13,108 nt of DNA, from contig JADFSZ010000026.1 of NCBI GenBank assembly GCA_022560555.1, positions 1 through 13,108 of the forward strand, read 5' to 3'. Source of the stretch: JADFSZ01 sp022560555 [NCBI: PVC group bacterium]. Lineage in GTDB: Bacteria; GCA-001730085; JADFSZ01. The notes below the pieces were generated by a model. It was not told the origin of the DNA. It saw only the letters and a program-made list of their open reading frames with translations, and did not search any database. This document shows, one piece after another, positions 6,889 to 12,085 of this stretch. The position numbers and the translations under genes were made by a program. Every line of letters begins with the position of its first letter. The stretch's first letter is position 1.

Positions 6889-8610
6889 ATGAGCGGGACA
6901 GAAAAAACACGGACCGGAGCGGAGGCTCTTGTACAATGCCTTGAAAATCATGGAGTTGAGTATATTTTCGGCCTCTCCGGGGGAGCCGCTATTCCGATAT
7001 TTGACGCTCTTGTGGACTCAAAAATCAAACTGATCCTCGTTCGGCATGAACAAGGCGCCACCCATATGGCGGACGGTTATGCAAGAGCGACAGGAAGGCC
7101 CGGGGTTGTGCTTGTTACTTCAGGCCCCGGAGCCACCAATACTGTGACGGGAATCATGACGGCCAAAATGGATTCTGTTCCCATGATTGTTCTTACGGGC
7201 CAAACCCCCACGTTTGTTTTGGGAAAAGACGCTTTTCAGGAAGCCGATATTCTTGGCATTACGCTGCCTATTGTAAAGCATAGTTACCTTGTCAAGCAAT
7301 CCAATGATATTCCGCGCATCGTGAATGAGGCCTTTCACATTACGAACACCGGCCGGCCCGGCCCGGTCCTCATTGATTTACCAAAAGATATAACATCAGG
7401 GGTGTGTACGGCTGCCTTAGATTCTCCCATGGATCTTCCGGGGTATCCCGAAGAGGCCAAGTTGGATCAAGCGGGTATTCTAAAAATGGCGGAATTGTTG
7501 AATCAGTCTCAAAGACCGCTTCTTCTGATCGGACACGGCGCCGTGATCGCTCGAGCGGGTAAAGCCGTCGTTAAGCTCGCAGAAAAACTAAATTCTCCTG
7601 TAACCAATACCCTTTTAGGAAAGGGGGCTTTCCCCGAAACACATTGCCTGAGTGTGGGCATGTTGGGAATGCATGGAACCGCCTACGCGAATAAAGCTTT
7701 AACACGTTGTGATCTGATTTTTTCCATCGGTTCACGTTGGGATGATAGAATTAACGGAGACACAAAGAAATTTTGTGTCGGAGCTAAAAGACTTCATGTG
7801 GATATTGATCCGGCGGAAATCGGCAAAATCCTGTCTCCCGATGCGTACGCGATCGGAGATGCGCGTAAAATCATCGAAGAACTTGTGAAACATGTCAAAC
7901 CCTTGGATACGAAAGATTGGATCAAAGAGCTTAACGGATATAAGAAAAAATATCCGCTCAAATATAAAAAACAGGGTGGACTCAAAGCGCAGCACGTTAT
8001 TGACGAGATGTATAAAGTGACAAAAGGAAAAGTTATTGTGACAACAGATGTCGGGCAGCATCAGATGTGGGCCGCGCAGTTTTTTCTTATCGATGAGCCC
8101 GATACATGGCTCACGTCCGGCGGTGCCGGTACGATGGGGTATGGGTTTCCGGCCGCTATCGGCGCTCAGTTCGGATGTCCCGATAAAACAGTTGTGGCTA
8201 TTGTCGGTGACGGTGGATTTCAAATGACGTTGTCTGAATTGGCGACAGCCGTGATTCATAAACTCCACCTGAAGGTTCTTATTATTGACAACAAATATCT
8301 CGGAATGGTCCGTCAGTGGCAGGAGCTCTTTTTTGATAACCGTTTGAGCGGGGTGGATCTCAAAGGGAATCCGGATTTTGTGAAATTGGCCGAAGCGTAC
8401 GGGGCAAAAGCTTTTCGCATTAAACGTTCGGCGGATGTCAGAAAAGTTCTCACGAAAGCGATGGAATATAATGACGGCCCTTGCGTGATTCACGCGGAAG
8501 TGATCAAGGAAGATAACGTGTTCCCGATGATTCCCGCGGGGAAATCCGCCTATGACATGATCATTGAAAAACCGAAGAAGAGGATGGAAAAACCTACAGG
8601 AAGCACGTAA
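6889..8610 (+). CDS. ilvB: acetolactate synthase (acetohydroxyacid synthase) large, catalytic subunit
   Basis: Thiamine diphosphate/FAD enzyme that condenses pyruvate with pyruvate or 2-oxobutyrate, the first common step of valine, leucine and isoleucine synthesis. At 573 aa it has the normal length. The PYR domain has LSGGAAIPIFDAL (29-41), slightly unusual because most have PGG, and the catalytic Glu54 in VRHEQGATHMADGYAR. The FAD/central domain has GMLGMHGTAYAN (257-268) and SRWDDRING (282-290). The PP domain has the ThDP motif VGDGGFQMTLSEL (439-451), DNKYLGMVRQWQ (467-478) with W477 at the herbicide-site position, and the C-terminal VFPMIPAGKSAYDMI. AGAGG lies 6 nt before ATG 6889. The regulatory subunit gene follows after a 205-bp repeat-filled spacer, and together they support biosynthetic AHAS rather than a catabolic enzyme. 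Confidence 0.96.
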   Translation: MSGTEKTRTGAEALVQCLENHGVEYIFGLSGGAAIPIFDALVDSKIKLILVRHEQGATHMADGYARATGRPGVVLVTSGPGATNTVTGIMTAKMDSVPMIVLTGQTPTFVLGKDAFQEADILGITLPIVKHSYLVKQSNDIPRIVNEAFHITNTGRPGPVLIDLPKDITSGVCTAALDSPMDLPGYPEEAKLDQAGILKMAELLNQSQRPLLLIGHGAVIARAGKAVVKLAEKLNSPVTNTLLGKGAFPETHCLSVGMLGMHGTAYANKALTRCDLIFSIGSRWDDRINGDTKKFCVGAKRLHVDIDPAEIGKILSPDAYAIGDARKIIEELVKHVKPLDTKDWIKELNGYKKKYPLKYKKQGGLKAQHVIDEMYKVTKGKVIVTTDVGQHQMWAAQFFLIDEPDTWLTSGGAGTMGYGFPAAIGAQFGCPDKTVVAIVGDGGFQMTLSELATAVIHKLHLKVLIIDNKYLGMVRQWQELFFDNRLSGVDLKGNPDFVKLAEAYGAKAFRIKRSADVRKVLTKAMEYNDGPCVIHAEVIKEDNVFPMIPAGKSAYDMIIEKPKKRMEKPTGST

Positions 8611-8615
8611 AAACA

Positions 8616-8795
8616 GTAATTGGTAAATCGTAAATGGGAAATGGTATAAGAACAAAAGATCAAAAACAAAAACTGGTAAATGGTTAAAAGATACAAGGAT
8701 ACAAGACACAAGATGCAAAGATACAAGGTGCATGATCACAAAGTCACAAGACATATGCACAATGACAAATGACGAATGAATGATGAAACGTGAAA
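8616..8795 (+). repeat. degenerate heptanucleotide repeat array between ilvB and ilvN
   Basis: Starts 5 nt after the ilvB stop. Five in-register heptads run 8616-8650: GTAATTG, GTAAATC, GTAAATG, GGAAATG, GTATAAG. A-rich units (AACAAAA, GATCAAA) follow, then GTAAATG again (8676), then a GATACAA-like set of 7-8 nt units (8690-8749), then AATGACA, AATGACG, AATGAAT and GATGAAA (8761-8788). Copy similarity decays along the array but the 7-nt period is visible in several blocks. Confidence 0.75.
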
Positions 8796-8815
8796 AATTA
8801 AAATAAGGATACAAC

Positions 8816-9349
8816 ATGGAGAAGGTGCAAACATCCGCAACAGAACAAAAACTGACCAGAAGGGAAATGCATACCATCAGCGTTTTTGTGGCCAATAAAC
8901 CGGGTGTGCTGGTTAGAATCGCGCTGGTGTTTGCCAGGCGCGGTTTCAATGTCGATTCTCTCGTCGTGTCGCCTGCCTTAGACGGGCATTATTCACGGAT
9001 GACAATTACGGCTCTCGGAGATCGCGAAACACTGATTCAAATCATTAAACAGGTTGGGAAATTGGTGGATGTTATTCGAGTGACAGAACATATAGAACAA
9101 GCAGTGGTAGAAAAAGAATTTGCTTTGATTAAGGTTGCCGCGGATGCAGCAAAAAGGGCCGAAGTCATGCTTCTGGTAGATCACTTTAAGGCCCAAACTG
9201 TCGACTTTACCGAAGACTCGCTGATTATTCAAGTGACCGGTAATACAGAAAAGCTGGATTCATTTATTAGTTTGCTGGAAAAATACGGCATTATTGAAAT
9301 TGTTCGGACGGGAAAAGTTTTGATGGCCCGCGGAAAAGAAAAAACATAA
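8816..9349 (+). CDS. ilvN: acetolactate synthase small, regulatory subunit
   Basis: ACT-domain regulatory subunit that activates the large subunit and normally gives feedback inhibition by valine. In this 177-aa protein the N-terminal ACT domain starts with HTISVFVANKPGVLVRIALVFARRGFNVDSL (19-49), which carries the effector-binding Asn-Lys-Pro-Gly loop. The second half (about 96-170) is the C-terminal ACT-like domain typical of IlvH/IlvN proteins. ATG 8816 has AAGG 7 nt upstream and gives an N-terminal extension of 17 polar residues. ATG 8867 would give the usual family start (MHTIS), but its AGGG is only 2-3 nt away, so 8816 is preferred. The symbol could equally be ilvH. ilvC does not follow. 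Confidence 0.93.
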   Translation: MEKVQTSATEQKLTRREMHTISVFVANKPGVLVRIALVFARRGFNVDSLVVSPALDGHYSRMTITALGDRETLIQIIKQVGKLVDVIRVTEHIEQAVVEKEFALIKVAADAAKRAEVMLLVDHFKAQTVDFTEDSLIIQVTGNTEKLDSFISLLEKYGIIEIVRTGKVLMARGKEKT

Positions 9350-9353
9350 TTCC

Positions 9354-9430
9354 GTAAATGGTAAACAGTAAACGGTGAACAGTAAACTGTAAATGACAAA
9401 TGACAAATGACAAAATCCGAATGACAAAAA
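9354..9430 (+). repeat. heptanucleotide tandem repeat array downstream of ilvN
   Basis: Eleven contiguous 7-bp units starting 4 nt after the ilvN stop: GTAAATG, GTAAACA, GTAAACG, GTGAACA, GTAAACT, GTAAATG, ACAAATG, ACAAATG, ACAAAAT, CCGAATG, ACAAAAA. Register is kept without indels over 77 bp. The unit shifts midway from GTAAAYR to ACAAATG, the same two forms seen downstream of ilvB. Confidence 0.88.
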
Positions 9431-9554
9431 ACTCAGTTAACGAAAAAACAAGGCGAAATATCCTTGTCCAAAAAGCCCCGCGTTAAAATCTAAAAACTAA
9501 GCATTATCAAAGCCGCTCTTGAATAGCGAAAAATGTTCTTCAAGATTCTGATTC

Positions 9555-9592
9555 TTGACGATTTTCACGGGTTCGTGTAAGGTTAGTAACCT
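9555..9592 (+). promoter_or_regulatory. possible promoter with overlapping palindromic operator, upstream of cysteine desulfurase
   Basis: TTGACG (9555-9560) is 5 of 6 to the -35 consensus. TAAGGT (9578-9583), 17 nt downstream, is a poor -10 with 3 of 6. A 13-bp palindrome AGGTTA-G-TAACCT (9580-9592) overlaps this -10, and a TCAAGA/TCTTGA repeat overlaps the -35. This arrangement suits a repressed promoter; the regulator is unknown. Confidence 0.3.
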
Positions 9593-9656
9593 CAGAAGAA
9601 TTTTGTGATCGCGTGTGCCGATCGACAGCACTCAAACTCAAATATTATGGACTTAT

Positions 9657-10805
9657 ATGAAACGCATTGTATATCTGGATAATGCGGCAACGACAAAACC
9701 GCTTCCGGCTGTAATACGAGCCGTATCAGAGTCGATGGAGGAGGATTTTGGAAATCCTTCGAGTCTTCACAACTTGGGTGTACATGCTCAGGATGTTTTT
9801 ATTGCGGCGAAAAGAGAAATTGCCGAATTTGCCGGATTGCCCTCCGAGTGGCTCATTATCACAGGAGGGGCCACGGAAGCTAATCAAACAGTTCTACTGC
9901 ATGGAACGAGAAAAGCCAATAAAAAACGGAATCATATCCTGATGTCCGACATAGAACACCCCTCGTCCCGAGAAGCCGTCGGGGGCCTTAAAGAAAAAGG
10001 TTATGAAGTGGAATGGATGAAGCCGGACGCTTTAGGTGTGATTTCACCCGAATCGGTCAGTCAAAAAATCCGTCCGGAAACGGAACTAGTCAGTATCATC
10101 GGCATTCATAATGAAATCGGTGTTAAACAGGATATCACCGGGATCTATCGGGCTATCAAATCCGCCAATCCCCAGACGCGTTTTCATGTGGACGGTGTGC
10201 AGTGGTTCGCAAAATATTCTTTGCCGGGAGTTTCTCACATGCCGGATTTTTTTACGTGGTCGAGTCATAAATTCCACGGGCCTCGAGGAATCGGGGGGAT
10301 ATTTAAGCGTCCGGCCATATCCATGGAGCCGTTGATTCGGGGAGGCGGACAGGAACGTGGAATGAGAAGCGGAACCGAAAATGTTGCCGGTACTATCGGA
10401 ACCGCTGCGGCTCTAAAGGGACTCATCTTAGAAGAATACCAAAAGAAAATGATTCCGCTTCAAGAAAGAATTTATCAGAGTGTCCTTTCATCGAAAGACA
10501 TGGTTTGGATCGGCCCGCCTCCGGGGAAGGATCGATCATGTTTTATATCCCTTTTTAGTATTGTGAACAAAAAAAGCGAAGTTTTTATCCATGAATTAGA
10601 GTCTCAGAATATTTTTGTTTCTTCCGGAAGCGCCTGTTCTGAAAAAAGCCAGAAAGATAAAACTTTTTGGAAAGATTTTTCTATTGACGCACGTGTCCTT
10701 GATGGACTCATTCGTGTGTCATTCGGACTTTTGACGACCGAAGACGATGTTGAGCGTTTTTGTGAGACGGTCCAAAGACTGATGACCAAAGAGCCGGCCC
10801 TATGA
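9657..10805 (+). CDS. cysteine desulfurase, class V aminotransferase fold (NifS/IscS family)
   Basis: PLP enzyme that takes sulfur from cysteine as a persulfide, for tRNA thiolation or Fe-S assembly. From ATG 9657 it is 382 aa and starts MKRIVYLDNAATTKPLP, the standard family beginning; an upstream in-frame ATG at 9615 would add 14 atypical residues. Motifs are ITGGATEANQ (68-77), DIEHPS with H101, HVDGVQ with D179, the PLP lysine K205 in SSHKFHGPRGIGG, RGMRSGTEN (234-242), and the catalytic C327 in VSSGSACS. The Shine-Dalgarno is weak. It overlaps thiI by ATGA. No IscU, SufE or IscR gene is adjacent, so a dedicated role supplying sulfur to ThiI, as with B. subtilis NifZ, is the best inference. 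Confidence 0.93.
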   Translation: MKRIVYLDNAATTKPLPAVIRAVSESMEEDFGNPSSLHNLGVHAQDVFIAAKREIAEFAGLPSEWLIITGGATEANQTVLLHGTRKANKKRNHILMSDIEHPSSREAVGGLKEKGYEVEWMKPDALGVISPESVSQKIRPETELVSIIGIHNEIGVKQDITGIYRAIKSANPQTRFHVDGVQWFAKYSLPGVSHMPDFFTWSSHKFHGPRGIGGIFKRPAISMEPLIRGGGQERGMRSGTENVAGTIGTAAALKGLILEEYQKKMIPLQERIYQSVLSSKDMVWIGPPPGKDRSCFISLFSIVNKKSEVFIHELESQNIFVSSGSACSEKSQKDKTFWKDFSIDARVLDGLIRVSFGLLTTEDDVERFCETVQRLMTKEPAL

Positions 10806-11968
10806 AGGCTCTCGTGCTTGTTAGATATGGTGAAATTGCCCTCAAGAAAGGGAACCGAAGCCGGTTTGAGAAAATCCTCGTCAAGAATATTCGTGCACGC
10901 TTGGTTGCTTTCAAAGACCTTCACATTCATTCTAGTGAAGGTCGAATCCTGATTGATACAAGCGGGGACACAAGAGAAGTTCTTCATGAGGCCGCGGGTG
11001 TTTTTGGCGTGGTCGGAACTCGTCTGATTTATAAAGTCCCAACAGAATGGGAAGAAATATTGTCCGGCGCGTTATCCATATTAAAAGATGATCCGCGAAC
11101 GCATTCGGCCAAAATATTTGCTATTCGAGCGAAACGTAAATATAAAGGGTTTCCTTTCACAAGCGAAGATATCGGACGTGAACTCGGCAGTCAGGTGATT
11201 GACACATTCCCGAACTGGACGGTCGGTCTAAAGAATCCCGAAGTCTGCGTACGCGTGGATGTTCATAAAGATGATACGTATATTTCTGTCGAGGAAGTTC
11301 AAGGTCCCGGAGGATTGCCTGTCGGGACAGCCGGACGTCTTGGGTTCCTTTTATCCGGTGGAATTGATTCACCCGTGGCCGGATATCTGATGCAAAAACG
11401 CGGGGCTGAAATTTTCCCGATTTATTTTCACAGTTTTCCCTATACGGGTAACCAAGCTCTCAACAAAGTGAAGGATCTTGCACGTGTACTGGCCCGGAAT
11501 CAGTTTCGGATGGATATGTGGATTGTGCATTTCACGCATATTCAGGAAACAATTCATGAGCGCTGCCTTCCGCGGTATGGAGTGATTCTCAATCGCCGGA
11601 TGATGGTGCGGTTGGCCGAAAAAATATCTCTTAAGGAAAACTATGCCGGGCTTGTGACCGGAGACTGTTTGGGTCAAGTCGCGTCCCAAACGTTAGGCAA
11701 TATGGACGCTGTGGGACAAGCTACGGGCATGCAAATTTATCGACCGATTCTTACCTATGATAAAACCGAGATTACAAAAAAAGCGCGTTTGATCGGAACA
11801 TATGATATTTCTATTCGCCCCTATGAAGATTGCTGTACATTATTTGTTGATACGCATCCCACCACGAATGCCGGACAAGACATCATTCGGACCGAAGAGA
11901 AGAAGCTCGATATTGAAGAACTCATTGAGGATGCCCTCAAGAAGACGAAAATAGAAAAGATTAAATAA
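10802..11968 (+). CDS. thiI: tRNA 4-thiouridine synthetase ThiI, short form without rhodanese domain
   Basis: Adenylates U8 of tRNA and inserts sulfur to give 4-thiouridine; in some bacteria it also serves thiazole synthesis. In this 388-aa protein an N-terminal ferredoxin-like/THUMP region (about 1-165) binds tRNA. The PP-loop is LLSGGIDSPVAGYLM (183-197), followed by VTGDCLGQVASQTLGNM (285-301). C344 and C345 in RPYEDCCTLF lie at the place of the E. coli Cys344. The C-terminal rhodanese domain with the persulfide Cys of E. coli ThiI is missing, and the protein ends in a charged tail. The ATG sits inside the upstream gene's last codons (ATGA overlap), indicating translational coupling with the desulfurase that must supply sulfur directly. 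Confidence 0.95.
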   Translation: MKALVLVRYGEIALKKGNRSRFEKILVKNIRARLVAFKDLHIHSSEGRILIDTSGDTREVLHEAAGVFGVVGTRLIYKVPTEWEEILSGALSILKDDPRTHSAKIFAIRAKRKYKGFPFTSEDIGRELGSQVIDTFPNWTVGLKNPEVCVRVDVHKDDTYISVEEVQGPGGLPVGTAGRLGFLLSGGIDSPVAGYLMQKRGAEIFPIYFHSFPYTGNQALNKVKDLARVLARNQFRMDMWIVHFTHIQETIHERCLPRYGVILNRRMMVRLAEKISLKENYAGLVTGDCLGQVASQTLGNMDAVGQATGMQIYRPILTYDKTEITKKARLIGTYDISIRPYEDCCTLFVDTHPTTNAGQDIIRTEEKKLDIEELIEDALKKTKIEKIK

Positions 11969-11973
11969 AAGTT

Positions 11974-12001
11974 GTAAATAGTACGTGGTAATTGGTTCCA
12001 A
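11974..12001 (+). repeat. short heptad array downstream of thiI
   Basis: Four 7-bp units starting 5 nt after the thiI stop: GTAAATA, GTACGTG, GTAATTG, GTTCCAA. They use the same GTAAATG-like unit as the ilv spacers and end just before the terminator stem. Confidence 0.6.
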
Positions 12002-12006
12002 AAGAA

Positions 12007-12046
12007 ATAAGGGCAGAGGTGATAACCTTCTGCCCTTATCGTTTTT
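12007..12046. terminator. rho-independent terminator between thiI and the aldolase gene, probably bidirectional
   Basis: ATAAGGGCAGA then GGT (12007-12020), loop GATA, then ACC-T-TCTGCCCTTAT (12025-12039): about 14 bp with a single bulge. TTTTT follows at 12042-12046 for plus-strand transcripts. On the minus strand the stem is followed by TTCTTTT, so it may also end aldolase transcripts arriving from the right. Confidence 0.93.
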
Positions 12047-12052
12047 AAAGAC

Positions 12053-12080
12053 GAATACCAATTTACAAATACCTACGTAC
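12053..12080 (-). repeat. short heptad array downstream of the aldolase gene (minus strand)
   Basis: Read on the minus strand, four 7-bp units starting 5 nt after the aldolase stop: GTACGTA, GGTATTT, GTAAATT, GGTATTC. It mirrors the thiI array on the other side of the terminator and shares GTACGT and GTAAAT elements with it. Confidence 0.5.
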
Positions 12081-12085
12081 GGTCT

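Follow-up and report, generated by a model that had tools for sequence, protein, structure and literature searches.

Why should short tandem repeats begin within a few nucleotides of the stop codons of four genes on one contig, each time reading in the gene's own direction? The window, that is, the whole 13,108-nucleotide stretch of DNA analysed, is contig 185 of the genome of JADFSZ01 sp022560555, an uncultured PVC group bacterium (assembly GCA_022560555.1; 222 contigs, 1.66 Mb, ∼91.5% complete), referred to here as the host. The original prediction described arrays of G-initial heptads starting 4-5 nt past the stops of ilvB, ilvN, thiI and, on the minus strand, an aldolase gene. NCBIfam matches bear out the gene names (acetolactate synthase large and small subunits, ThiI, and class I fructose-bisphosphate aldolase). 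The stops lie at 8610 (ilvB), 9349 (ilvN), 11968 (thiI) and 12086 (aldolase, minus strand), and the first array G is found at 8616, 9354 and 11974 after ilvB, ilvN and thiI (gaps of 5, 4 and 5 nt) and at minus-strand position 12080 after the aldolase gene (gap of 5 nt), all four arrays lying on the coding strand of their gene as predicted. The features of these spacers are as follows.

8616-8644, + strand: GTAATTG-GTAAATC-GTAAATG-GGAAATG array, sense, 5 nt past the ilvB stop
8687-8741, + strand: degenerate AAGATAC-type repeats between ilvB and ilvN, with periods of 7 and 15, sense strand A-rich
8761-8803, + strand: AATGACA-type heptads, sense, ending 12 nt upstream of the ilvN start
9354-9414, + strand: GTAAATG/GTAAACA/AAATGAC array, sense, 4 nt past the ilvN stop
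11974-11996, + strand: thiI-side arm GTAAATA-GTACGTG-GTAATTG-GG, 5 nt past the thiI stop
12007-12039, no strand assigned: terminator-like stem-loop (13 pairs, loop of 7, T tail on the + strand), a consensus match only
12056-12080, - strand: aldolase-side arm, 5 nt past the aldolase stop, facing the thiI arm; read directly

TRF reports 8616-8646 for the ilvB array (score 41, with 4.4 copies of GTAAATG) and covers the ilvN array with two segments, 9354-9393 and 9391-9414. The thiI and aldolase arrays, which are not called at score 30, are both short and degenerate (a single clean GTAAAT unit in each) and form facing arms on either side of the terminator-like stem-loop. Rfam returned nothing at gathering score for the window. 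The ilvB stop looks old, its terminal residues (KPTGST) matching those encoded in Candidatus Omnitrophota UBA10147, the source of the best acetolactate synthase match found (72%).

To place these arrays in a genomic context, 518,139 bp of the host were analysed in 64 sequences (31% of the genome): all 23 contigs with a match to the 14-mer GTAAATGGTAAATG, and 41 others picked by number. This choice raises array density (8 of the 34 period-7 arrays come from contigs without a GTAAATGGTAAATG match); being blind to genes, it should leave position and strand unbiased. Gene calling, by an in-frame hexamer model, gave 511 genes. In 487,750 bp, 34 period-7 arrays were found, versus none in a Markov-3 control of equal length, while periods 4-6 and 8-13 gave 0 to 4 arrays each, period 14 (a harmonic of 7) gave 17, and period 15 gave three, with one in the control. 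The window arrays are thus not chance, and period 7 dominates the tandem repeats of the host, whose arrays are heptanucleotide simple sequence repeats (LSSR) in the sense of tandem 7-nt units beyond chance. Allowing at most one mismatch, GTAAATGGTAAATG occurs 42 times in the host and 0 to 6 times in each of 58 other genomes, 29 of which have none. Only one of these 58 relatives is labelled as belonging to the host's phylum, and none to its genus or family; that one genome (G001) yielded no period-7 array in 33.5 kb of its 1.9 Mb.

Clusters of at least two GTAA[AT][TC]N units number 42 in the host. Six fall inside called ORFs, and the other 36 are intergenic or at the edge of a contig; the 34 of these that are flanked by genes on both sides were compared with random positions and orientations within the same spacers (10,000 draws). 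Reading away from the nearest gene, with the G end towards it, is the rule for 32 of these 34 clusters (17.1 expected; reached in 0 of 10,000 draws), the two inward exceptions, both in L116, being far from both genes (138-212 nt). The nearest gene end is a stop in 24 clusters (19.0 expected; borderline, p = 0.051), and all 24 point outward, as do 8 of the 10 clusters nearest a start, these eight lying on the antisense strand. Divergent spacers hold none of the 34 clusters, though they make up 31 of the 229 spacers of at least 40 nt. Heptad arrays of any kind occupy 23/189 tandem, 3/9 convergent and 0/31 divergent spacers, the tandem versus divergent difference being borderline (p = 0.051).

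The strand bias and preferred distance that the original prediction expected genome-wide were both found in the 31% of the genome sampled: GTAAAT-type units within 51 nt of 223 stops are sense in 79 cases and antisense in 7, and 14 of 34 clusters are at most 6 nt away from a gene end (5.4 expected; 0 of 10,000 draws reach this). Two parts of the prediction require amendment. The proposed 3'-end element captures the bias and distance on the stop side but not the eight of 34 clusters beside starts, on the antisense strand, so that the general rule is outward reading from the nearest gene, not restriction to 3' ends. These eight outward clusters fall in seven spacers, all with a stop-side array as well (in L129 a degenerate one); as they lie 9-49 nt from the start, the arrays are tightly flush on the stop side only. 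The gap of 4-5 nt, for its part, holds for the four window genes but is not fixed elsewhere: among 24 host genes with an adjacent array (thiI and aldolase fail this adjacency criterion and are outside the set), the stop lies inside the array in 8, the gap is 4-5 nt in 8, and it is 9-28 nt in 8. TAA is used at 22 of the 24 array-adjacent stops (267 of 471 in the genome sample), the eight in-array stops coincide in register with a unit's TAA, and stops in all three frames within 21 nt follow 13/23 array genes versus 9/444 others. This last count is circular as support for a readthrough block, since the unit contains TAA and the stop lies inside the array in 8/24 genes; the excess follows trivially from the TAA carried by GTAAAT.

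Other heptad families occur in the host. AGTTCGG-type clusters, whose unit has no stop in any frame, obey the outward rule in 8/10 cases, the remaining two being 90 and 114 nt away from a gene. Two further families do not follow it uniformly: ACAGAAG-type clusters point outward in 4/5 cases, and those of the ATGACAA type (the AATGACA-type family seen upstream of ilvN) in 2/8. A family-agnostic test, which asks whether arrays are more alike when oriented away from their gene than when reversed, supports polarity across 42 host arrays (p = 2e-4). A rule based on composition, with the outward strand G-rich, was rejected as not general. The left edge of the arrays is often CC (C at -2 in 31/44 and at -1 in 24/44, a set that includes some arrays inside called ORFs). 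At L120:851-902 and L125:18403-18498, the right-hand sequence ATAACTCCGAACTGAC is common to both sites, upstream of different genes, each with a stop-side GTAAAT array, the arms thus being of mixed family.

Is the rule peculiar to the host? UBA10147, a relative, was analysed over 376,940 bp, where 51 arrays were found at a stricter score; at a looser score, 50 were intergenic and a further 22 fell in called ORFs. The counts leave out these 22, whose ORFs may often be spurious. The units differ from spacer to spacer (AGTGGTC, AGTCGTA, AAGAAGC, AAGGGTC and others), and the architecture stays constant: polarity is outward (p = 5e-5), 33/50 arrays are no more than 6 nt from a gene end (18.2 expected, p = 2e-4), and 33/50 measure 28-34 nt, or about four units, although the lower side of this mode is partly a product of the ∼18 nt or more needed to call an array. 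Arrays occupy 41/154 tandem spacers versus 0/26 convergent or divergent ones (Fisher p = 8e-4), often as inverted pairs that are predicted to be able to fold. Among L239-L268, start codons (as called) lie 1-3 nt past the start-side arm, mostly without a Shine-Dalgarno-like sequence, which is present at 2/14 starts with an array within 16 nt, versus 132/316.

The predicted folding of array spacers was scored against mononucleotide shuffles. In UBA10147, median z is -4.8 for the 36 array spacers (of 41) of at most 160 nt and -6.6 for the eight with two called arrays, versus -1.0 for 61 other tandem spacers; z falls below -3 in 23/36 versus 20/61. Host array spacers as a group show no unusual folding (median z 0.0, n = 17, versus -0.2, n = 60); by the same count 11 of the 17 lack two arms, and the six two-arm spacers range from -0.6 to -5.2. 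Arms within one spacer tend to belong to the same heptad family (p = 2e-4 for 17 UBA10147 spacers; p = 0.004 for 12 host spacers). They match one another no better than they match arms of that family from other spacers, duplex energy being weaker than with swapped arms; by 24-nt complementarity, own arms score higher in 10 and lower in 4 UBA10147 cases, and higher in 2 and lower in 3 host cases. With the two measures in disagreement, co-evolution of paired arms was dropped. Copying of whole modules was likewise rejected: a unit offset of 0 is hardly better than 7 or 14, with no unit-by-unit descent between modules.

Further afield, 80 loci from diverse bacteria, 1.41 Mb in total, again have period 7 as the commonest, with 28 arrays (other periods 2-15). 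In three heptad-rich genomes sampled in whole or in part by pattern hits (all G061 contigs, 6/14 G059 stretches, all six G064 stretches), the family-agnostic permutation test found no outward polarity in G061 (p = 0.94) or G059 (p = 0.19), and the six G064 stretches held no linked arrays for it. Since G061 and G059 do not show the rule by this test, our own claim covers the host and UBA10147; for Xanthomonas and Nostoc we rely on the published account. Two spacers of G059 (L218:17235-17280 and L221:3353-3385) carry perfect TTTAGGA arrays, a telomere-like unit, both pointing away from the nearest gene. L208 (G064, Calditrichia) has long near-perfect heptad arrays at 1-94, 14946-15001 and 18283-18376, with CAAGCAT and CTAGATG units at the contig ends and CGCTTCC inside, a regime unlike the short degenerate arrays.

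What, then, are these arrays? Their period, polarity, flush position, tandem bias and, in UBA10147, pairing potential are direct observations; any effect on expression is what we infer. Tentatively, we prefer to read them as polar gene-end modules, similar to REP/BIME elements, that may act in the transcribed spacer. A module would comprise ∼3-4 heptads, always reading outward from the gene it adjoins, and its complete form would be an inverted pair in the spacer between tandem genes, with one arm flush with the upstream stop and the other near the downstream start. Single stop-side arms, such as those of ilvB and ilvN, may be half-sites or remnants of such pairs. An arm or stem-loop near the stop, if it acts as RNA within the transcribed spacer, could slow termination or protect the mRNA end.

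The main rival, which we consider somewhat unlikely, is polymerase slippage in spacers, with selection barring the repeats from genes, promoters and start regions and thereby setting their polarity: near starts, a G-rich strand would add start codons or Shine-Dalgarno-like sequence. Among the longer simple repeats of many bacteria heptads are the most frequent, and 7 is the known mode of unit length (Mrazek 2007, as told in the available text of PMC4679880), in line with its prevalence in the 80 diverse loci, whole modules do not appear to be copied, and the rarity of Shine-Dalgarno-like sequence at array-bearing UBA10147 starts may mean that only one strand is tolerated there. Slippage nevertheless leaves unexplained the single polarity of stop-side arrays (24/24) and their nearness to the stop, and the narrow length range in UBA10147 also speaks against it.

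Three further readings were considered. It is unlikely that in several lineages a single gene-border process produces arrays with a unit of 7, about four units, outward polarity and a flush position at stop or start, the unit sequence being free to vary from species to species and even from one spacer to the next; if true, this would point to a sequence-independent gene-end element or a polar, outward process of DNA synthesis in place of sequence-coded sites. We regard as quite unlikely an array of binding sites, polar and facing the spacer from both sides, at which a sequence-specific protein would mark gene borders on DNA; polarity relative to the gene is indeed alike at stops and starts in the host, and the C at -2 of the left edge is consistent with such a site, but a heptad that varies by spacer within a constant architecture, as in UBA10147, is not what one protein would predict. 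A mobile module spread by a transposase acting in trans (of REP/RAYT type, or a MITE with heptad ends) appears distinctly improbable. Dispersed copies, inverted pairs, the left edge and three Y1 transposase matches in the host genome would fit it; however, the 1.9-3.2 kb around the three Y1 genes contain no period-7 array or GTAAAT pair, the lack of unit-by-unit descent counts against it, and the Y1 gene in L227 has its own unrelated palindromes. In that contig (contig 27 of G000), the Y1-transposase ORF at L227:100-851 has a matching palindrome on each side, in RAYT/REP-like fashion, with no heptads nearby. No support was found for mobilisation by RAYT.

Highly improbable, finally, is the readthrough block of the original prediction, in which the TAA of each unit would close all three reading frames immediately beyond the gene: it fails as a general cause, since stop-less units follow the outward rule too (AGTTCGG in the host; in UBA10147 the AGTGGTC-type family, whose main form has no stop, outward in 20/23), and it leaves the start-side arms unexplained.

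How do the arrays compare with known systems? We found no paper on intergenic repeats in Omnitrophota, and among the matches listed nothing comes closer than the REP, Geobacter, MacGregor and Rehm systems. REPs are palindromes, arranged as inverted pairs and with associated RAYT transposases. Like REPs, the host arrays lie near stops and are rare in divergent spacers (borderline in the any-heptad tandem versus divergent test); their units, on the other hand, are tandem heptads, inverted only as paired arms (judged by eye), and no heptad array surrounds the three Y1 transposase matches in this ∼92% complete genome. By defining features, then, the host arrays are not of the REP family, although they may work like REPs. 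The likeness to E. coli REP/BIME elements lies in their being spacer elements that form inverted pairs and in part lie within 15 nt of stops; ribosome stalling is reported for REPs so placed (PMC12306157, citing earlier work).

In Geobacter metallireducens, four tandem heptanucleotides occur in 49 places, other site classes there being paired on opposite strands; these elements differ from ours in their unit (GGACCGG) and in occurring also inside genes, and the available text gives no placement rule (PMC2700814). The TAACTGA repeats of marine Beggiatoaceae come in sets of 2-6 close to gene ends, the largest class ending 1 nt before the start, mostly without a ribosome-binding site (MacGregor 2015, available text of PMC4679880). 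The start-side arms of UBA10147 (L239-L268) resemble them in closeness to starts and in the mostly missing Shine-Dalgarno-like sequence. As described in that text, the Beggiatoaceae repeats are start-side with one fixed unit, whereas the host arrays (unit GTAA[AT][TC]N) are mostly stop-side (24/34 nearest a stop) and reverse-complemented at starts.

The closest parallel in placement is the GGGNATC heptads in spacers of Xanthomonas and Nostoc (Rehm et al. 2015, here as given in the available text of PMC4692102). These lie mostly within 50 bp of stops, sense, or upstream of starts, antisense; they are nearest the 5' neighbouring ORF, whichever direction the gene runs, and under-represented between divergent genes, with four units preferred and 70 and 75 convergent pairs in two Xanthomonas. 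The text available discusses G-quadruplexes and reports no function; it also reports a distribution unchanged when shorter, mutated repeats are counted, which already argued against quadruplexes as the cause of placement (PMC4692102). The host arrays share this placement (sense near stops in 24/24, antisense near starts in 8/10) but differ in lacking the quadruplex potential: four GGG runs occur in 0/44 and four GG runs in 1/44. A G-quadruplex basis for them was accordingly rejected, and because they cannot form quadruplexes, the placement rule needs none. Placement of the Rehm type is already published; here it occurs with an AT-rich unit and, in UBA10147, with many different units. The question moves from folding to how the length and number of the units, their polarity and their spacing from gene ends are fixed, and, for a rule assigned no function in the available account of Xanthomonas and Nostoc (PMC4692102), it becomes testable across genomes.
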